DNA of 21,159 nucleotides from a virus, in IMG/VR virus record IMGVR_UViG_3300009126_000035, positions 1-21,159 of that record. One strand, written 5' to 3'. Below, in pieces: positions 1,411 through 21,159 of the stretch. The position numbers and the translations under genes are program-made. Under the pieces are notes generated by a model. It did not search any database. It was not told the origin of the DNA and saw only the letters and a list, made by a program, of their open reading frames with translations. Every line of letters begins with the position of its first letter. The first letter of the stretch is position 1.

Positions 1411-4089
1411 TTAAATTCCTATTGTTTGTTTGTTCATCATTGCCTGCTTCTCTCTCATTTTTTGGTATTTCACCTCTTCATAAAGACCAGGCCTTTCTAT
1501 ATAAAGCTGTTGTTGCGCAGCCTGCTTAAAGCCGTTAACGATCTTTAATACTATTGTCGCCTTGCCACCATCTGGGCCATCTGAGGCCATCTTATAGATG
1601 TCGCTCTTCATCATTTGGGCAAGGAAACCTCTAAGATTGTAGTCCTGGGTTTTTCCTGTGGCTGGATTGTAGTAAGGCAGTTTTACGCCCTTACCAACCA
1701 GCACAGCATAGCGGTCATACTCTCTTGGTTTTAGCTCAACCGCGAACTTGCCCTGGCCAAACTTCTTTCTAGGTAGGGTAACCTCGATCTCATGTGCCAC
1801 CAATTCTGCCGCCACCGGATCGTCTTTGATCTTTGAAGAGTAGATCGGCGAGACAAAGTCCCAACCCAATCCACCCTGTAAAACAATCGGCTCACCCCAC
1901 AGGTTTCTTCTTGGTGGTAGTGAGTCTGAAAGCCCAGGCGTTCTTGATTTGATTTGATCAATCACAGTATAGGTCGCTCGCATTGTAGGATCTAGATCTC
2001 TTTCAATGTTTGCCACCAAAGATGTCATTGGAGTAAATGTCGCCAACTGTCTTCTAAAATAACCTTCGGCATATCTGTCTGGATCACTGATAGCGTTCAT
2101 TGTGTCTGAAAGGCCACGCAGATAGGTTTTAGATGTGAGGTTTTTCGCAAGCGCTAAAATGGCCGCCACAGAAACCTCTGTCGCATCCGCATCATTAGCG
2201 TATTTCATAGCCTCTTGTGTGTCCGCAGCAAGACCCAAAAACATACCCAAAGGATCTACACGGTTATACGAGTGCCACTCGTCACCAATCTTAATGGAGT
2301 ACGGCTGCCAGCCAGTAAGTCTTAAAGCATCACGCAATTCTTTATCCTTAGGTCCTGCGCCTGTAATCGTACCCTCGCTGGCCATCATAACTCCGACACC
2401 CATAACACTAGAGCCTAAAGCTATTCTTGATAAAGCAAGGTCACGCCTTGCGCCACCAGCAGCAATATCCGCCTTAACTGATTTAGCAAATGGGGCAAGT
2501 GGAGATCTCACACCAACATACTTAACAATGTTTACCGGTGTTCTAACAAACGGTAATAGCAACTTTAGTGCCGGGTGAGCATTGGCCAACTGTTGTACTT
2601 TCCTTCCCGCATCACCCAATGGATTAGTAAAGGTTTGAACCCTGGCCATGTTTGACGCGGCCAAATGGATTTCCTCGGTTGGATTTTCAATTAAGTCAAT
2701 AACTCTTTGGGCTAGATCTGGACCCTCTAAACCTTCACTTACTGCTTTTCTATAGGCTAGGGCGTTAAGTTCCATACGATAGCCGACAGACTTAAAGAAC
2801 TCGTCCTCGGCGCCCAGGAATCGACCTGGAAGTCTTGTTACTTCACCCAACAGATCCACACCTTTTGCCAAAGATGTGTTTTTAACGTTTAGATTTTCAG
2901 AAGTAATTGAACGATATTGTCTTGCCTCTAGCTTCATCGCAGGGTCTGTAGGCTCACCTGTCTTTAATGCTCTCCAGGCCAGTCTAAGACCATCTCTTGT
3001 TCCCTGAAATACGCCATATAGTTGACCCACGGCCTCCTGTATTTGAACGCCGTCATGAGATCTAAATATTTTTGAAAACGATGCCGCTAACATTCTCTCT
3101 GGTATTGACCATAGCGCCACCATCGCGTTCGATGTCATATTGACAGAATGGGTTGCTGGTGAAGATAACAGGCCGTTGATCCAGTATTCAAGAACCATAT
3201 CTCCCGTTGTGGCCTTGCTTAATGCTTTTGTTTTCTTGGTAACATCAGCCAGATCTTCAGCCTCACTAATAATTTGTGCCATCTTATCAACAGCGTCATC
3301 GCCACCGGATCTCTCAAAAGCCTCCTGGAGCTGTGTTCTAAACACTGCGGACTTGCTACCGGTTTCAGCTCCCACTGGAATTCTCCAGGCATTAAGTGAT
3401 CTTCCAGACTCTGCCGCCATACCTGCGACCGCCTGCTGAATACCAACGTGAGTTGATATCGCTTGACGGAAGGCCATCTTGAATGAGGTATCAGCTCCCG
3501 CATCCCCTCTAAGGATTGTCTCGGCCATCTTTTTAAGGTTGTCGGCAGACTGTTGTAGTGCTATCCTTGCGCCGGTTACCCTGGTTGGTGATACACCATC
3601 ACCCAACTTAAAGCCCAGGATCTCTTCAAGATCAACCTTGGCAGATCCTAAAACAGTTTCCTCGTGAGACACGGTTCCACCCCTGGCGTCAATAAAGTGT
3701 TTGTTTTGCTCACCAATGTTGTCAATAACCGTTAACGCATCCTCAGAGTCGGTGATGTTGTTAAAGTTAATATTGCGACCCTCTGGGTTTTTAGCGGAAG
3801 GTCTACCACCCTCTAAATCTTTTGGTGCTGTAATATCCTCTGCTTGCTTAACCACATCGTCCTCTGGGTCTTTCGGCGCTTGCGCGTCAGCCTGATTGTT
3901 CTTTGGTGGTTCAACTGGAGGTTGTGACGCTTGCGCGTCCACCTCAACCTCTGCCTCTGATTTTTTAGCATCAACCCTTCCGGTGGTGTCCTTAAACAAT
4001 TGACCTGTGGATCCTTTAACAATAAGATCGTCCGTCTTGGTGGCCGAAGACTTAAAGAAAGCCCTTAGTATGCTCGCGCCTGCTGACAT
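1411..4089 (-). CDS. Large internal virion / DNA ejection protein (gp16 position)
   Basis: Predicted ejection (internal core) protein, 892 residues. The N-terminus (1-35) is followed by a disordered acidic, Pro/Gln-rich linker (about 38-105). A long mainly helical body follows, with a recognisable segment around 296-334 (LSSPATHSVNMTSNAM and flanks) and another at 485-530 (TFTNPLGDAGRKVQQLANAH, then LLPFVRTPVNIVKY). These are typical of the large proteins found between tail tube and fibre genes in podoviruses. Residues 552-571 form a hydrophobic, Gly-rich stretch that could insert into a membrane, which would fit a T7-gp16-like trans-envelope channel, but this is inference. The ATG overlaps the preceding stop (TAATG), and GGGAGG lies 9 bases upstream. 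I recognise no catalytic motif. The role rests on size, position and resemblance. Confidence 0.75.
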   Translation of the reverse strand: MSAGASILRAFFKSSATKTDDLIVKGSTGQLFKDTTGRVDAKKSEAEVEVDAQASQPPVEPPKNNQADAQAPKDPEDDVVKQAEDITAPKDLEGGRPSAKNPEGRNINFNNITDSEDALTVIDNIGEQNKHFIDARGGTVSHEETVLGSAKVDLEEILGFKLGDGVSPTRVTGARIALQQSADNLKKMAETILRGDAGADTSFKMAFRQAISTHVGIQQAVAGMAAESGRSLNAWRIPVGAETGSKSAVFRTQLQEAFERSGGDDAVDKMAQIISEAEDLADVTKKTKALSKATTGDMVLEYWINGLLSSPATHSVNMTSNAMVALWSIPERMLAASFSKIFRSHDGVQIQEAVGQLYGVFQGTRDGLRLAWRALKTGEPTDPAMKLEARQYRSITSENLNVKNTSLAKGVDLLGEVTRLPGRFLGAEDEFFKSVGYRMELNALAYRKAVSEGLEGPDLAQRVIDLIENPTEEIHLAASNMARVQTFTNPLGDAGRKVQQLANAHPALKLLLPFVRTPVNIVKYVGVRSPLAPFAKSVKADIAAGGARRDLALSRIALGSSVMGVGVMMASEGTITGAGPKDKELRDALRLTGWQPYSIKIGDEWHSYNRVDPLGMFLGLAADTQEAMKYANDADATEVSVAAILALAKNLTSKTYLRGLSDTMNAISDPDRYAEGYFRRQLATFTPMTSLVANIERDLDPTMRATYTVIDQIKSRTPGLSDSLPPRRNLWGEPIVLQGGLGWDFVSPIYSSKIKDDPVAAELVAHEIEVTLPRKKFGQGKFAVELKPREYDRYAVLVGKGVKLPYYNPATGKTQDYNLRGFLAQMMKSDIYKMASDGPDGGKATIVLKIVNGFKQAAQQQLYIERPGLYEEVKYQKMREKQAMMNKQTIGI

Positions 4090-7000
4090 TAGGCGGTACC
4101 TCCCTCAAATAGTTTTCTTTCTGCCTCTCGTCTTTTGACTAGGCCCTTTAATATCTTTCCGCCTTTTTTATCTTTCACAAAGCCGGTCTTGGAATCAAAC
4201 GCCTCTTTAATAAAGGTGTCAAAGTCCCCACTATTTAGTGCCTTTAATGCTTTGGATTTTTTGAAGTTGCCCTCACCCACGTTAAACACCAGGGAGACGA
4301 CCGCACTTCTTTGATTAGGTGTAAGATCAACCTTTACGAGACGATCTACAGCCTTCTCAGCTACCGCCAGATCCTCTTGGAAAAATTGCTCTGCTTGTTC
4401 TTTAGTGACCTTTTCGCCATTCTTAACACGGCGTGTTGAGCCATAACCAACGGTGACAATGCCTTGGTTTTTCTCGGATGTTGAGGCGTGATAGCCTGTG
4501 GCCTTATAATCCTCGAAGGATTTTATAAATGAGTCGGTCTCGTTGGCTTCTGTTGCCCCTGCTGTACCGACTGTAGCAATTGGTACTGCCGCGTTTGTTT
4601 TTACTTCTTCTGGTCCCTTGTCCCAGTTGTATTTTTCTGCGAAGGTTTGTCTGACTTCTTCTGCTTGTTGACCGTACTTATCGACCAGTTTCCGGTAAAG
4701 ATCGGATGATCGTCCGGTAAGTCCCTCTCCGTAATCTTGCCCATTTGTGCTTAACTCCCAATTGTTCTCAATTAATTTTCCTTCGGACCTAAATCTACCA
4801 ACACTTACATTTGGTAGATCAGCCTCTATTATAGCATTTTTAACCTTTTGATAGAACACCTTGTTGTCTAGATCGCCGAAGTTTATTAACTCAACTCCGT
4901 CATGTGATGGGATCGGTGATGTCCACTGATCGCCAAACTCAACCTCTAGTGCTTTATATAGTTTTGCTGTTTCATCTCTTGTTAGTGTTCTGCCCTCATC
5001 AACCTGAACATGAACACCGTTGCTTTCTTCCCAATTCTTTGGTTTAAACGCTCTTCGATAGGCAACACCTTCTTGTTTAAACACGGTTCCAACAACACGG
5101 GCGTAAAGATCCAACAACTCTTCATCAGCGGCATTAATACCATCATCCTGTGTGCCACTTACTACAGCCCTAACTTGGACGCTAGGGTTAACATCGCCAG
5201 CCCAACCACCAAAACCTAAGAAGTTGTCAGGCGCTAAAATTCCAATGTCTTTAGCTAAAGCATCAGCACCGTTCTCATCCAAGAACACGCTATACATGCT
5301 TTGGGTAAACTCGGCCACCTCTTCTGGCTTGGCGTTATGAATACCCGGAAGAACGTTCGTGGATCTTCCAGGGACGGCCTCAAGCGCTATATTGCCTAAG
5401 TTATCCTGAATACCATCAGAGTAATCATAAGAGGCCTTCAGGAATTCATCCAAATCAAACTCCCTGTCGTAAACCATCTCTTGATAGTATTTGTCGTACT
5501 TCTTTTGATGTTGTGGCAGGATATCACCCTTGGCGTTGGTCCAGCCTTTTGCTTTTGCGTGCTTCTTGATTGTGGCCTTAACTGGATCAAACCTGCCCTT
5601 GACCGCCACCCAGATTGCCGCCTGTGCCTGGTGTGGAGACCAGCCCATTTTCTCTGCGATGCTTGTGGTGATCTTCTCCATGTTTTCATACTGGGCGGGG
5701 CCTGGCGCATCACTGTCTAAGCCAAACGCCCTTGCCATCCACATGTCCTGCGTGGTTTTCAATTCGGAAACCATATCAGGGTCGATCTCAACCATCAGGT
5801 TGCGATAAAAAGAGTTTGTTTTTCTACCCTCCCACGGTATGCCGTTTAACACACCCTCGATCCTTTTAGACTGACTAGCAGGGAACCTGCCAGACTCTAT
5901 AGGCAAACCTGCCTTGTGTTGAGCGTATGCCTTAAAGGCAAAACCGGTGTTGGTTTTAACGTTCGTGCTTTGGCTTGTAATAGCGATGATCTGGGCCAAC
6001 TTTTCTGCCTCTTTAACGTCACCACCCACCAAGTCCATGATGGCCTTTGATGAGTTCTCGTACCACATTCTAGCGTCCGTTCCTTCATTCGCAAGGTTGT
6101 TGAGTTTTGCAATTAGTTTGTTTAGCTTTTGTGGTGTGTTGATTGTTTTAGAAAAGCCAACGTATGTACCATCCTTGTTGCGCTTAAAGTCTTTTGAACT
6201 AAGTGTTACCTTTTGAGCGCCTTTTACATTTGGCACAATATTGCTTGCCATCTGCGACTGAACACCAAACTTTTCTAAAACCCTTGGCACCAGATCCGGA
6301 TCGGTGTCGTGAATAGACTGCTTGATCTTTTTAAAACCCTGGACTAAATAGTGAGCAGCAAAACCAATACCAGCGCCCTCTAATACGTTGGTTGCCCTGG
6401 CTAACAACCTCTCCTCTGCGCTTGCGTCCTCGCCAACCTTGGAGTCTAGGAATTGGGTTAAAGCATTGTCAATATCCAACTCCCTTAACAGTGTGCCAAT
6501 GTTGCCCTCTTCAGGATCAAACAAGGAATCAGCAAAACCACCGGTCCACATCTGCTTAAACAGACCAGCACCTTTACTCATGCCTCCTAGAGCGCCGAAC
6601 ACGGACATAAATTGACTCAAGCCAGCGACAACAGCCTCTGTACCAGAATCGGGGTTAGAATCGAGAATTTGTGGAATCTTTAACCAATCCTCTTCGTTGA
6701 ATTCACCACCCAAAGCGTTGGTTACATCCCTTCCTAAATCTAAGATGCCCTGGGCTGCGTTTTGTGTTCCAAGCACCACACCCTTGGCTATCGGGTTTTC
6801 TTCCCTAGAACCCTTTAAAAACGGCGCTAAAAACGGGAAAACAACTTGCTGTGCCTCATCCGGTAATGAGTTCCAAGCGTTAGCAACAACAGAGTCTCCT
6901 GGCGTATCCAAATAACCCAAAGGTTCTTCCGTTGTTGTTGTTCCCCAATCGTCAAGCGGAATACCAAACTCGTCATGCTTTGGTGAGGCCTGAATCGACC

Positions 7001-7241
7001 AAGGATCTAACTCAACCGGCTCATCGGCCTGTTCAGGTTGGATAGAGTCCCTGTACATCTTTTTAGCTGTGGCAAGAGACGTAGGCTCGTACTGCTGATT
7101 TAATTTAGCAGCGTAAGAGGATACAAAGTCATCGCTTAAATCACGATCACCGCCCAACTGTCCGTCTTGAAAAACCAAAGGCTCTAGACGAGGCTTACCC
7201 GCTAACTCTTCTTTGCTTTTTTCAATACCTATTTCAATCAT
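4089..7241 (-). CDS. Large ejection protein with C-terminal T4-type lysozyme domain
   Basis: Predicted multidomain virion protein, 1050 residues. Residues 1-120 look disordered; 125-300 contain Gly/Ala-rich hydrophobic helices; 385-470 and 620-725 resemble domains common in large phage polyvalent or ejection proteins (ARMWYENSSKAIMDLVGG; EAVPGRSTNVLPGIHNA). Residues 903-1048 match the T4 lysozyme fold (GH24): SFE with the candidate general acid E910, VTVGYGS with T930, LTPNQRSAVVSLVFNVGEGNF, and a C-terminal KRREAERKLFEG helix. The domain would open peptidoglycan locally during DNA entry, the job done by the transglycosylase of T7 gp16. The position equivalent to T4 Asp20 is Ala919, so activity is uncertain. 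The start overlaps the preceding gene (TGATG). Lysozyme domain call is strong; ejection role is inferred. Confidence 0.82.
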   Translation of the reverse strand: MIEIGIEKSKEELAGKPRLEPLVFQDGQLGGDRDLSDDFVSSYAAKLNQQYEPTSLATAKKMYRDSIQPEQADEPVELDPWSIQASPKHDEFGIPLDDWGTTTTEEPLGYLDTPGDSVVANAWNSLPDEAQQVVFPFLAPFLKGSREENPIAKGVVLGTQNAAQGILDLGRDVTNALGGEFNEEDWLKIPQILDSNPDSGTEAVVAGLSQFMSVFGALGGMSKGAGLFKQMWTGGFADSLFDPEEGNIGTLLRELDIDNALTQFLDSKVGEDASAEERLLARATNVLEGAGIGFAAHYLVQGFKKIKQSIHDTDPDLVPRVLEKFGVQSQMASNIVPNVKGAQKVTLSSKDFKRNKDGTYVGFSKTINTPQKLNKLIAKLNNLANEGTDARMWYENSSKAIMDLVGGDVKEAEKLAQIIAITSQSTNVKTNTGFAFKAYAQHKAGLPIESGRFPASQSKRIEGVLNGIPWEGRKTNSFYRNLMVEIDPDMVSELKTTQDMWMARAFGLDSDAPGPAQYENMEKITTSIAEKMGWSPHQAQAAIWVAVKGRFDPVKATIKKHAKAKGWTNAKGDILPQHQKKYDKYYQEMVYDREFDLDEFLKASYDYSDGIQDNLGNIALEAVPGRSTNVLPGIHNAKPEEVAEFTQSMYSVFLDENGADALAKDIGILAPDNFLGFGGWAGDVNPSVQVRAVVSGTQDDGINAADEELLDLYARVVGTVFKQEGVAYRRAFKPKNWEESNGVHVQVDEGRTLTRDETAKLYKALEVEFGDQWTSPIPSHDGVELINFGDLDNKVFYQKVKNAIIEADLPNVSVGRFRSEGKLIENNWELSTNGQDYGEGLTGRSSDLYRKLVDKYGQQAEEVRQTFAEKYNWDKGPEEVKTNAAVPIATVGTAGATEANETDSFIKSFEDYKATGYHASTSEKNQGIVTVGYGSTRRVKNGEKVTKEQAEQFFQEDLAVAEKAVDRLVKVDLTPNQRSAVVSLVFNVGEGNFKKSKALKALNSGDFDTFIKEAFDSKTGFVKDKKGGKILKGLVKRREAERKLFEGGTA

Positions 7242-17405: not shown

Positions 17406-18278
17406 CTAATCACCACAAAAACAAGGAATGGTTGTGTCGTCAAATCCAAACATTGGAGTTTGCTCTATCGCTATTTGTTTCATCTGTGCGTAGCTTGGTG
17501 AGTCCTTCCTAAAAAAAGCCGCCTTGCCAACATCGGTACTCAACGACTCCTCGGTTTCAATCCACCAATCAGCTAAATCTGGTCTTGCTTGGATAATGCT
17601 TTGTTTCTTGCCATATCCTTTTAGAAAACACAAATCACAATTACCCCAGTCGGTAACCCCGTTGTTGTTGGGCAAATCTAAATCAAAATCCTGTGCGTTC
17701 CAAAAATCACAAACGTCTTGCGCTGTCACCCCGTCCAAATACAATGGTAAATATCTCTCTTGTCCTGACTCCACTGTGCCATTCATTTTGACCGCCCGTC
17801 TTGGCTCGTCACCACGAATACCGATATAAGCAACATAAGGTGTTTCAAAACCACACGAATCAATTAAATACTCTTTGATAGCCCTTATCTTTAAATCCGC
17901 AGTACAAAATCTCGCCACTGGATTTGGGGCATATCGTCTTGCCTTGACCAACGCACTAAACGGCTCGCCATTTCTGCTGGCTGACTCATAATCAACAAGT
18001 CGGGTTTCATAAACGTATTTGTTTTTCTCGTCCTCTCTCGCCTCTCTTGCGAACCTTTCCAGCCAGACAATATCAACGCCCCACTTCTCACCACAATCTC
18101 TAACGAAATCCAATGTTTCAGGCATTTCTTTACCAGTATTCGCAAAACAAACCTTGGCGAACTCAGGCAATTTACCATCATGCGCCTCAAGTATCTTGTG
18201 TAGCATATAGGCAGACGTTCTCCCTCCACTGAAGCTGATTACTGATGGCTCGGTGATTTTGTAAAGCGATCTCGTCAT
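17406..18278 (-). CDS. PP-loop (PAPS reductase-like) enzyme
   Basis: A 290-residue member of the adenine nucleotide alpha-hydrolase (PAPS reductase/ATP pyrophosphatase) superfamily. PP-loop ISFSGGRTSA (14-23); FANTGKEMPETLDFV (45-59); ARFCTADLKI (122-131); GIRGDEPRR (153-161); NCDLCFLKG (213-221); C-terminal CFCGD (286-290). C125, C214, C217 and C286/C288 could hold an Fe-S cluster or zinc. Family members activate substrates with ATP or reduce sulphate; related proteins act in sulphur assimilation (CysH), DNA phosphorothioation (DndC) and tRNA thiolation (TtcA). The KTEC-type end of true CysH is not seen, so a CysH role is not supported; a nucleic-acid or nucleotide modification role is possible. 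It sits between TerS/DUF3310 and TerL, 2 bases after the former. Confidence 0.85.
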   Translation of the reverse strand: MTRSLYKITEPSVISFSGGRTSAYMLHKILEAHDGKLPEFAKVCFANTGKEMPETLDFVRDCGEKWGVDIVWLERFAREAREDEKNKYVYETRLVDYESASRNGEPFSALVKARRYAPNPVARFCTADLKIRAIKEYLIDSCGFETPYVAYIGIRGDEPRRAVKMNGTVESGQERYLPLYLDGVTAQDVCDFWNAQDFDLDLPNNNGVTDWGNCDLCFLKGYGKKQSIIQARPDLADWWIETEESLSTDVGKAAFFRKDSPSYAQMKQIAIEQTPMFGFDDTTIPCFCGD

Positions 18279-18992: not shown

Positions 18993-19150
18993 TGGACGGT
19001 CCCTCCTTCGCTAGTTTCAATAATTTCGATTGCGTCCAGCAGGGTGCTAACATCCTGGTGTGCCTCATCAATTGTTATGCCCCTCTCTTCACTCAGCAAC
19101 ATAATGGCGGCAACATATCTCTCTCTTTCGGTGTATTCCTCTTCACTCAT
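18989..19150 (-). CDS. Small acidic hypothetical protein (53 residues)
   Basis: A 53-residue frame from ATG at 19150 to TGA at 18989-18991, beginning MSEEEYTERERYVAAIMLLS and ending SEGGTVH. It fills the otherwise empty 155 bases between the methyltransferase and terS. Its ATG overlaps the methyltransferase stop by 4 bases (ATGA), and its TGA overlaps the terS TTG start, the same arrangement as neighbouring genes. It is acidic and predicted helical (one hydrophobic helix face around 13-19 and 36-45). I do not recognise a family. The tight fit on both sides makes it a likely real gene; function unknown. Confidence 0.75.
   Translation of the reverse strand: MSEEEYTERERYVAAIMLLSEERGITIDEAHQDVSTLLDAIEIIETSEGGTVH
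19002..19008 (-). promoter_or_regulatory. Strong Shine-Dalgarno before the terS TTG start
   Basis: AAGGAGG with a 9-base spacer to TTG at 18992. It is the best ribosome site in the right half of the window and lies inside the end of the 53-residue gene. Confidence 0.78.
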
Positions 19151-19566
19151 AAAACCACCACCATTGAATCGTGCATGCCATCCTTTTTAGACACCCTCTC
19201 ACCATTAGTATTTACACCAATAAACTTAACCCTTCCTCTAATAAACCGGATCTCTTTGGCGTTGGGCTGTACATGATCATGAAATAGTTTGGTGCTTGTA
19301 CTAACTGGCAACAACATCACACACGTTCTGCCTTGTTTTGCAAAATCAATTGCCCTTAAAACAAACGCCTCTTTTAGTTTTCGGCTGTAGGGAGGATTGA
19401 TAAAATTTCTCATCCCCCAATCTATTGAGAGTCCATCGGTTTCTGGTGTAACTTCTTGCATAATTGGGCAGGGATCAAAATCAAAATCAAATTCATTGTT
19501 GAGTTCGTCATAAAGATATTTTGGTGTTTCCCAATGATCACTATGCTGTATGTTTCTATTCTTCAT
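19147..19566 (-). CDS. Phage DNA N6-adenine methyltransferase (Dam family)
   Basis: A 139-residue phage-type adenine methyltransferase. WETPKYLYDELNNEF (12-26), FDFDPCP (28-34) as the SAM-binding region, and the catalytic NPPYS motif (57-61); then TCVMLLPVSTSTKLFHDHV (81-99) and an IRFIRGRVKFIG block (106-117) with a short C-terminal strand ending HDSMVVVL. This pattern matches the Pfam 'phage N-6-adenine-methyltransferase' family, usually around 160-190 residues, so it is short but with all visible motifs. It would modify phage DNA, protecting it from host restriction or marking it; target site is unknown. ATGA overlaps link it to the genes on both sides. Confidence 0.9.
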   Translation of the reverse strand: MKNRNIQHSDHWETPKYLYDELNNEFDFDFDPCPIMQEVTPETDGLSIDWGMRNFINPPYSRKLKEAFVLRAIDFAKQGRTCVMLLPVSTSTKLFHDHVQPNAKEIRFIRGRVKFIGVNTNGERVSKKDGMHDSMVVVL

Positions 19567-19973: not shown

Positions 19974-20261
19974 TTAAATTAACCCCTTTGCCACCAAAAT
20001 CTCTTGCGTTTTAATCACCCCTTCCAGGTGAACCTTGCGAACAAAATCTCTGTCCTTTTCGTTAGGCACTCGACCGTCCAGGATGTCATGGCAATGAGCG
20101 CACGAATACGCGCCGTGTATGTCCAAAACCTTTGACCCCATACCGCCACCGTTTAAATGTGCGTAAACCACTGTCTCATTATTTGGCCCGCCATTACAAC
20201 CGTTGAATCTAATCTGGCACGGCATTCCCCTTGCGCTGCGGGTGAGCTTATTCATTGACAT
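19974..20261 (-). CDS. YbcO/DUF1364-type nuclease
   Basis: A 95-residue protein closely resembling E. coli DLP12 YbcO (DUF1364), a small HNH-type metal-dependent endonuclease. SARGMPCQIRFNGCNGG (9-25), VVYAHLNGGGMGSK (31-44), SCAHCHDILDGR (53-64) and a C-terminal helix VHLEGVIKTQEILVAKGLI. C15, C22, C54 and C57 may bind zinc; H35 and H58 are candidate catalytic residues. It probably acts in late recombination or branch processing, as lambda-like nin genes do. Two starts are possible: ATG at 20261 (4 bases after GGGAGG) or ATG at 20255 (ATGA overlap with the preceding gene, 10-base spacer); I give the longer one. Confidence 0.85.
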   Translation of the reverse strand: MSMNKLTRSARGMPCQIRFNGCNGGPNNETVVYAHLNGGGMGSKVLDIHGAYSCAHCHDILDGRVPNEKDRDFVRKVHLEGVIKTQEILVAKGLI

Positions 20262-20725
20262 AAAGCCTCCCTAACCTGTTGCTCACTCCAGCCATTGTCC
20301 AGGTAGAACTTCTTTGCCCAATATTTGGTTGCCGTTGAGCATCCACGAGGGTCGTATCTTTTGAAGAACTCAAAGCGCTCCTCTCTGTTTGACGAATCCC
20401 AGAGTCCGGCGTAGTCGATCTGCTTATGCTCAATCACCGCCTTGGGTTCGTTCATATCCGCGTTATGAAACTCGCGTAACATGGTCAGAAAGTCTGGCAT
20501 TGTTGGTGGCCTCTTGTGACTTTCGTCCACCCATTTGTGTTTGGCTTTATCAACAAAGCGCAAGGCGTTATCAGGCAAGTGTGCCAACTCTTCAGCAAAA
20601 GCCTTTACCATTTCTACCTTATCGACGCTACTGTTAACAAAGTAACCATAACGTGTCACTGACCATTGAGCTATGTTGCTCGCGACTGCCAGATATTCAA
20701 TCTCTTCTTCTTTTTGATAAGTCAT
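20252..20725 (-). CDS. P-like replication protein (helicase-loader candidate)
   Basis: A 157-residue protein directly after the O-like initiator, overlapping it by 4 bases (ATGA). RPPTMPDFLTMLREF (72-86) resembles the PP-T-PxEF motif of lambda P-type replication proteins, and the C-terminal part (YWAKKFYLDNGWSEQQVREAL) is helical. In lambda, P loads the host DnaB helicase onto the O-bound origin. This protein is shorter than lambda P (233 residues), lacks Walker motifs, and is called chiefly by position and one motif. It might instead be a divergent or unrelated small replication protein. Confidence 0.5.
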   Translation of the reverse strand: MTYQKEEEIEYLAVASNIAQWSVTRYGYFVNSSVDKVEMVKAFAEELAHLPDNALRFVDKAKHKWVDESHKRPPTMPDFLTMLREFHNADMNEPKAVIEHKQIDYAGLWDSSNREERFEFFKRYDPRGCSTATKYWAKKFYLDNGWSEQQVREALCQ

Positions 20726-21159
20726 CCCACTATCCTCATTTTGTTTGTTAAATTAGATAAAGCACTTTTCTTCTTCTGCTCTATCACCCTGCCTATATCT
20801 TGGTAACTCATGTTTTGAGTTGGTGATTGCGGGACCATAGGTCTTCCCGTGTACTTCCAATCGGGGTCAATGCCCTTCCATGTTTTTGATAAGTAAAAAT
20901 CAACAGCGTCATCAACAGTGATTGACCAGTAGGCAGCGTATGCCCTCAATGACTTGAGCAATCCTTTAAGCATTCGATTGGTCAACAAAGGTGCCTTAAC
21001 GACAACCTCTCTATGCTCGACCAGATCCTGGAGCGTTTCCAATGAAAATTCAGGGGAAACAAAAGCATCAAAATCCAACTTTCTTTTTGGTACTTTTTCT
21101 TTATTAGGTTCTATGGGAGGTTCTATGGTAGATTGGTGTACCGTTTTTGGTACTTTTAA
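20722..21159 (-). CDS. O-like replication initiator, C-terminal part (partial)
   Basis: The frame is open to the right edge, with 145 residues visible; the N-terminal DNA-binding domain lies outside. The visible part begins with a linker containing two KVPK motifs (residues 2-5 and 23-26) around IEPP and IEPNKE, then a helical domain FVSPEFSLETLQDLVEHREVVV through WSITVDDAVDFYLSKTWKGIDPDW, ending at MRIVG. The repeated VPK...IEP linker is typical of lambda O/phage-type initiators, whose linker DNA contains the origin iterons. A TTG at 21078 is not the likely start, as the frame continues upstream. The stop TGA overlaps the next gene's ATG. The O-like call is from linker and order. Confidence 0.7.
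   Translation of the reverse strand, partial: LKVPKTVHQSTIEPPIEPNKEKVPKRKLDFDAFVSPEFSLETLQDLVEHREVVVKAPLLTNRMLKGLLKSLRAYAAYWSITVDDAVDFYLSKTWKGIDPDWKYTGRPMVPQSPTQNMSYQDIGRVIEQKKKSALSNLTNKMRIVG
21084..21157 (+). repeat. Iteron-like direct repeats inside the O-like gene
   Basis: TTTTTGGTACTTTT occurs exactly at 21084-21097 and 21144-21157, 60 bases apart. Between them AGGTTCTATGG occurs at 21106-21116 and 21118-21128, a 12-base period. They are A/T-rich and lie in the linker-coding region of the O-like gene, where lambda-type phages carry their origin. More repeats may lie beyond the edge. Confidence 0.6.

Follow-up and report, generated by a model that had tools for sequence, protein, structure and literature searches.

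The stretch of DNA analysed here (the window) is an entire virus record of 21,159 b, and its final minus-strand gene (20722–21159) is open at the record end. The gene is that of an O-like replication initiator, truncated on its 5′ side by the record end, and the remaining open ORF of 145 codons covers the linker and the C-terminal domain. The first 60 bases on the minus strand are TTA AAA GTA CCA AAA ACG GTA CAC CAA TCT ACC ATA GAA CCT CCC ATA GAA CCT AAT AAA. At the position of lambda P lies a gene for a 157-aa protein (20252–20725, minus strand), which has no Pfam match and no significant PHROG match and possibly encodes a helicase loader. A single-sequence search for its relatives found none, and an alignment-based search found 10 loci, some on contigs found earlier (loci are given as L numbers). 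A homologue with 49% identity is located directly after the 284-aa HTH_36 initiator in L005.

The neighbors of the initiator gene include a YbcO-type nuclease and NinB (Pfam and PHROG matches), both of which are known from lambdoid nin regions. A Dam-type DNA adenine methyltransferase gene (19147–19566, minus strand) lies beside NinB and had no counterpart by tblastn (E up to 0.01) in 73 other loci. The structural genes of the window match the PHROG families of head-tail adaptor, tail, tail tubular, and major head protein. Phage MEP301, whose head protein is related, carries annotated tail tubular proteins A and B, and we take the head and tail genes of the window to be T7-type. These structural families together with the YbcO/NinB/O region fit the mosaic phage proposed in the initial annotation. 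A further minus-strand gene (4089–7241) encodes a 1050-aa protein with an endolysin-like domain at its end (residues 881–1048).

When searched alone, the truncated initiator fragment gave no match in Pfam and no significant match in PHROG by direct hmmscan. No phage match was obtained by tblastn (at E up to 10, five records appeared, the best with E 3), and no close relatives were found in viral_contigs, phages, or genome_contigs. L002, the sole match in viral_contigs, lies within a 3284-aa ORF and was taken as chance. The fragment is, however, recognized at 27.2 bits (E 3.8e-7) by an HMM of the C-terminal parts of nine initiators, window excluded, though these members were picked when the resemblance of some to the window was already known, and L168, L215, and L244 are near-identical. 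The best of 2000 shuffles reached 9.7 bits with this HMM, and among the 138 stop-to-stop ORFs of the window, only the one holding the initiator gene scores above the shuffles. A BLASTP comparison of the fragment with the L201 initiator alone gave a weak match (30% over 47 aa, E 0.002). Residues 30–92 (20884–21072, minus strand) constitute a helical C-terminal domain predicted by AlphaFold2 and matched by the HMM, which presumably binds a partner protein. In the AlphaFold2 model, the mean pLDDT values of the blocks in residues 31–90 are 85–92, whereas residues 1–20 are a low-confidence linker with values around 50. Comparison of the model with solved structures gave no fold match (best E 5.7). 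Based on the HMM match, we assign the C-terminal domain of the window to the HTH_36 class of phage initiators.

The linker-coding part contains two kinds of repeats. The 14-mer TTTTTGGTACTTTT is found exactly at 21084–21097 and 21144–21157, 60 b apart, and an 11-mer, CCATAGAACCT on the minus strand, is found exactly at 21118–21128 and 21106–21116 with a period of 12. On the minus strand, the 14-mers are translated as KVPK...KVPK and the 11-mers as IEP-PIEP. Both repeats had been pointed out in the initial annotation, and both proved to be exact and above synonymous chance, as described below. The interpretation of their units should be revised, however. The 14-mer had been regarded as the repeat unit, but the putative binding unit, the iteron, is a 16-bp dyad, GTACC-AAAAAC-GGTAC (21138–21153, minus strand), consisting of 5-bp arms and a 6-nt spacer. 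This dyad overlaps the 14-mer copy at 21144–21157, which is the only copy in a full dyad. The second copy, at 21084–21097 (minus strand), is a half site, GTACC-AAAAA, without a second arm by direct reading. One full dyad and one half site are thus visible in the window, and the record ends 6 b past the dyad. Similarly, the IEP repeats had been described as lying between the 14-mers; the 11-mer pair is indeed exact, but it is part of a separate module (module 2) adjoining the dyad, a run of three 12-nt units, CAATCTACCATA, GAACCTCCCATA, and GAACCTAATAAA, that encode the IEP repeats (21100–21135, minus strand).

We evaluated these repeats by 200,000 synonymous draws over the first 32 codons, in which the protein was fixed and codons were taken from the usage of the window itself. 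The p values were 0.006 for the 14-mer repeat, 0.018 for the 11-mer pair, and 0.0035 for the 16-bp dyad, and no draw contained all three. The minus strand of 21084–21159 (76 nt) folds into a hairpin formed by the dyad, with a z value of −2.69. An A/T-rich tract, the search for which had been recommended in the initial annotation, is located beside module 2 (21070–21109), with 75% AT over 40 b against a fragment mean of 59%; it is not the AT-richest 40-mer of the fragment, the maximum (0.775) being near the fragment 3′ end. No records extending past 21159 were found in a scan from which the record of the window itself, and perhaps very near ones, had been left out. GC skew was dropped as evidence for an origin because both gene direction and the record end, 76 b away, confound the minimum of the window at 21083. 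The skew of L005 has a local turn near 18,000, just upstream of a cro-like gene, which may be explained by the change in gene direction, and its global minimum is at 27,506.

In viral_contigs, 98 stretches were found with two GTACC-N6-GGTAC dyads within 30 b; 80 of these loci were analyzed, and L250 alone was examined among the other 18. A number of the 80 loci are in GT- or VP-repeat proteins. A coherent group among them has the dyads mostly at approximately aa 90–150 of 250–320-aa ORFs, whose linkers contain peptides such as STKNGT, STKIGT, and VPKTV. The 16-mer dyad of the window is found in identical form in the initiator linkers of L168, L196, L207, L215, and L244, among others, and L192 carries ...STENGTRVVPKTVLEPVPKTVHKPVIEP..., which resembles VPKTVHQSTIEPPIEP of the window. 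All 10 dyad-bearing ORFs scanned matched PHROG replication-initiation families, and in Pfam, eight of them contained HTH_36 above the cut-off, while the other two, L182 and L222, were Phage_rep_O (PF04492) proteins. In the Phage_rep_O gene of L182 (12–806, minus strand), six exact GTACC-N6-GGTAC dyads are arranged in 24-b steps and encode STESGTSG. Judging from this gene, the GTACC arm is also used in Phage_rep_O, the other initiator family.

The gene in L201 (7404–8273, minus strand) should be noted, since the iteron core GTACCAAAAACGG appears there in all three registers of one gene, giving STKNGT, PVPKTD, and QYQKRD, though the second arm of the PVPKTD copy has diverged. In the predicted structure of this initiator, the linker encoded by the iterons is disordered (pLDDT below 50 for residues 107–155) and is located between a winged helix and a helical domain.

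The use of registers was counted in 34 representatives with at least two near-dyads (one mismatch or less), drawn from 106 genes in 56 clusters at 70%. Thirty-one array ORFs passed the linker-motif filter, and five were omitted before clustering, L179 and L200 by judgement and L194, L234, and L241 for being shorter than 180 aa. The 34 genes each have 2–11 near-dyads, spaced mostly by 12, 18, or 24 b, in the part coding for the disordered linker. The near-dyads are distributed over the three codon registers as 131, 23, and 3, and at least two registers are used in 16 genes and all three in L283. The dyad in the window, in the VPKTV register, belongs to the class with 23 of the 157 near-dyads.

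These counts bear on the possibility that the repeats belong to the protein, a low-complexity linker whose DNA repeats are by-products of codon reuse. KVPK and IEP are certainly repeated in the window, the linker is of low confidence in the model, and several GT- or VP-repeat proteins also match the two-dyad pattern. This explanation is nevertheless very unlikely, as it is contradicted by the same DNA being read in two or three registers as STKNGT, VPKTV, or YQKR, and the counts exceed those in synonymous shuffles. The shifting registers of both modules, together with the excess over synonymous shuffles, lead us to conclude from the comparison of genes that selection acts on the DNA and that the peptide repeats follow from it. 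Since the linker peptide would be free to vary, the DNA could set the protein sequence. The earlier suggestion that the linker repeats are due to DNA constraints is thereby borne out.

Homologues in bacterial genomes were collected using N-terminal peptide patterns that do not contain the iteron, and the best 80 of 90 were used. This set is biased in that the query alignment was made from dyad-picked initiators and the 80 were ranked by similarity to one such initiator over a region that took in the linker. Most of the homologues come from Acinetobacter genomes, and the rest include those of Marinomonas, Desulfovibrio, and Thioalkalivibrio. Clustering at 60% identity left 29 representatives, which together contain 40 near-dyads, while synonymous shuffles of the same genes gave a mean of 6.0 and a maximum of 10. 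A near-GTACC dyad is present in only 13 of the 29 representatives, six of which use at least two registers. When the 29 genes were scanned regardless of the arm sequence, a spacer of 6 was the commonest (nine genes, one with the arm CCCCC, versus 0.00 in shuffled sequences), followed by spacers of 4 (six genes) and 1 (five genes). In a second ORF set (77 of 87 kept by length, 11 clusters), a spacer of 10 was the most frequent (4 of 11 clusters) and a spacer of 6 was found in 2 of 11; in our reading, the former reflects the outer portion of that same dyad (TATTGAC-N6-GTCAATA). Inspection of the 29 representatives by eye gave no clear rule relating the recognition helix to the arm.

The positions of the near-dyads are relevant to another explanation, that the initiator, or some other regulator, uses the dyads as operators to control its own operon, the origin being elsewhere. 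A winged-helix protein that binds the dyads could also act as a regulator, and the origin activity is inferred from sequence. However, 37 of the 40 near-dyads in the bacterial homologues are within aa 90–155, in the coding region and not at a promoter, and the sites occur in arrays of several copies with a second repeat module of 12 nt next to them, an arrangement like that of the lambda origin. We therefore consider operators improbable, and an origin the better explanation of the arrays.

Module 2 is also conserved in the family. In many related genes, chains of (G/C)AAYC(T/A) at 11–13-nt steps follow directly after the last dyad. In 31 genes, the very genes where the motif had been found by eye before it was counted, chains with three cores were present in 17, two cores in four, and none in 10, whereas synonymous shuffles gave 0.54 genes with at least three cores and 3.36 genes with two. 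Three of the 34 representatives are outside this test: L196, where the last near-dyad falls within the C-terminal part, and L182 and L222, which are of the Phage_rep_O type. Of the 21 chain-bearing genes, 18 have the motif in two or more registers. When the 50 b following the last dyad are compared with themselves, similarity peaks at lags of 12 (z 5.0) and 13 (z 4.3); lags of 4, 8, and 23 are likewise raised, but to a lower level (z 3.1–3.9).

A composite pattern of the dyad, AAYCT, and GAAYCT, derived from the module-2 genes, matched 26 stretches in viral_contigs, seven of which were already in the earlier set. Twenty-five of the 26 are in ORFs with an initiator N-terminus, and the result was again 25 of 26 with references free of the iteron peptide. 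At 60% identity, the 25 hits group into seven clusters, one of which has 11 members. All 26 hits share a single register, so that they are uninformative on frames. By direct reading, the window also matches the composite pattern. The agreement of the dyad, the three 12-mers, and their spacing with the related genes makes it highly improbable, even more so than codon reuse, that the window shows a chance similarity or a decayed origin, that is, the remains of a non-working or weakly used array. Such decay would account for the single full dyad and for the second copy without an arm, but with 6 b of the record beyond the dyad, there is room for an upstream array.

The search with the terminase gave 72 loci, among which dyads of the same design but with other arms were found. 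TTGAC-N6-GTCAA dyads are present in the initiator linkers of L005, L043, L046, L055, L038, L052, and L048. The initiator gene in L023 (6853–7644, plus strand) has four exact-arm TCGGA-N6-TCCGA dyads in three registers, a count reached in 0 of 200 synonymous shuffles, and that in L057 has GTATG-N6-CATAC dyads, a count reached in 2 of 200. Seven TTGAC genes have two copies each, always in the same register, and 7–20 of 200 shuffles reach the observed count; these genes were accordingly set aside as weak proof of synonymous constraint. The linkers in L047 and L037 have no repeated dyad.

The HTH_36 initiator gene in L043 (5709–6410, plus strand) had matches in 105 phage records, many from phages of Staphylococcus, Lactobacillus, and Lactococcus, with identities of about 42–54% among the 40 matches listed. 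A PAPS-reductase-like gene lies between the terminase and a DUF3310 gene in the window (17406–18278) and directly after the initiator in L055 (5477–6364) and L046 (1094–1981), with approximately 77% identity. The gene is a moving accessory gene within this phage group.

The arms differ between phages that are otherwise close. L005, a syntenic relative of the window, carries the TTGAC arm and not GTACC, and the terminase in L023, where the arm is TCGGA, is 82% identical to that of the window. Overall, L005, L023, L057, and the window carry different arms despite terminases with 76–86% identity, which suggests that the initiator and the origin were exchanged together, as one block, among these phages and, more broadly, among phages with terminases of 75–86% identity. 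Through such joint exchange, relatives infecting the same cell could escape each other's initiators. We tentatively extend this to a general scheme, to which we give somewhat less than an even chance. In this scheme, HTH-type initiators share a two-module in-gene origin, in which constant 5-N6-5 dyads with interchangeable arms (GTACC, GTCCC, GTGCC, TCGGA, TTGAC, and GTATG) are combined with a conserved 12-nt (G/C)AAYCT-N6 repeat. The repeat would serve as a sequence-specific opening signal rather than plain A/T-rich DNA, and the initiator-plus-origin block would be swapped as a unit. The bold part is the extension of the 12-mer module to other arms, since it was examined in the genes with GTACC-like dyads.

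From these observations, the repeats in the window are very probably the promoter-distal (3′) part of a lambda-type in-gene replication origin of a mosaic phage. The strongest support is comparative: the two DNA modules recur at the same position of the same gene class in differing codon registers. The initial annotation had placed origin-type repeats inside the O-like initiator gene, and the same iteron and 12-mer module in HTH initiators of phages and prophages, together with the C-terminal HMM match, uphold this placement. We infer that further dyads and the N-terminal HTH lie beyond the record end. The initiator, through its N-terminal winged helix, would bind the 16-bp GTACC-N6-GGTAC dyads as a dimer. 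Once bound, the initiators may put strain on or capture the 12-nt repeats and the A/T-rich tract alongside, so that the duplex would open there, and the C-terminal domain would recruit the helicase loader or the helicase, giving origin activity.

If this is right, the signature of a dyad and a 12-mer chain points to origins in phages and prophages for which experimental origin data are lacking, and the linker would be a clear case of a protein segment dictated by its coding DNA. The conserved 12-mer module would also be a candidate signal for strand opening; the way in which origins open is presented as a still unsettled question in the title of PMC5043065. A literature search over titles and the beginnings of abstracts, with most subscription journals outside its scope, found no GTACC-type iterons, shifting registers, or 12-mer module in HTH_36 initiators.

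For lambda, the location of the origin inside a gene is well established. Lambda O contains four annotated iterons (ITN1–4), the starts of which are in three codon registers, and three of the four contain a dyad, TCCCT-N7-AGGGA, with one mismatch or less. The A/T-rich region of lambda ori is described as lying beside the iterons, to their right (PMC6022878). The window and its relatives resemble lambda ori in that dyad iterons with A-rich spacers in the linker-coding segment of the initiator gene are followed by A/T-rich DNA, and the GTACC-dyad genes of this family share with lambda iterons that start in different codon registers. On the other hand, the arms and spacer are TCCCT and 7 in lambda but GTACC and 6 in the window, HTH_36 (eight relatives) is more frequent than Phage_rep_O (two) among the 10 GTACC relatives scanned, and the window and its relatives have the regular 12-nt (G/C)AAYCT module. 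The O genes of Stx phages also contain iterons, and their O proteins are described as longer for carrying them (PMC7466680).

HTH_36 initiators (PF13730; PHROGs 678, 6643, and 1032, annotated as replication initiation) have a C-terminal domain homologous to that of the window and, in part of the class, the same iteron and module 2. The window differs in that its record ends before the N-terminal HTH region and its dyad is in the minority VPKTV register. In the PLE satellites of Vibrio cholerae, RepA uses semi-palindromic iterons, and its DNA-binding domain varies together with the origin, whereas its C-terminal domain stays conserved; unlike in the window, the PLE origin is in a noncoding region and not in the gene (PMC8263062). 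In staphylococcal pSK41-type RepA_N plasmids, the origin with its Rep boxes is placed centrally in rep, in linker-coding DNA (PMC5703833). The initiator there is a plasmid protein with another named domain (RepA_N), but, by description, the window is alike in having origin-type sites within the initiator gene, in the DNA coding for the linker.
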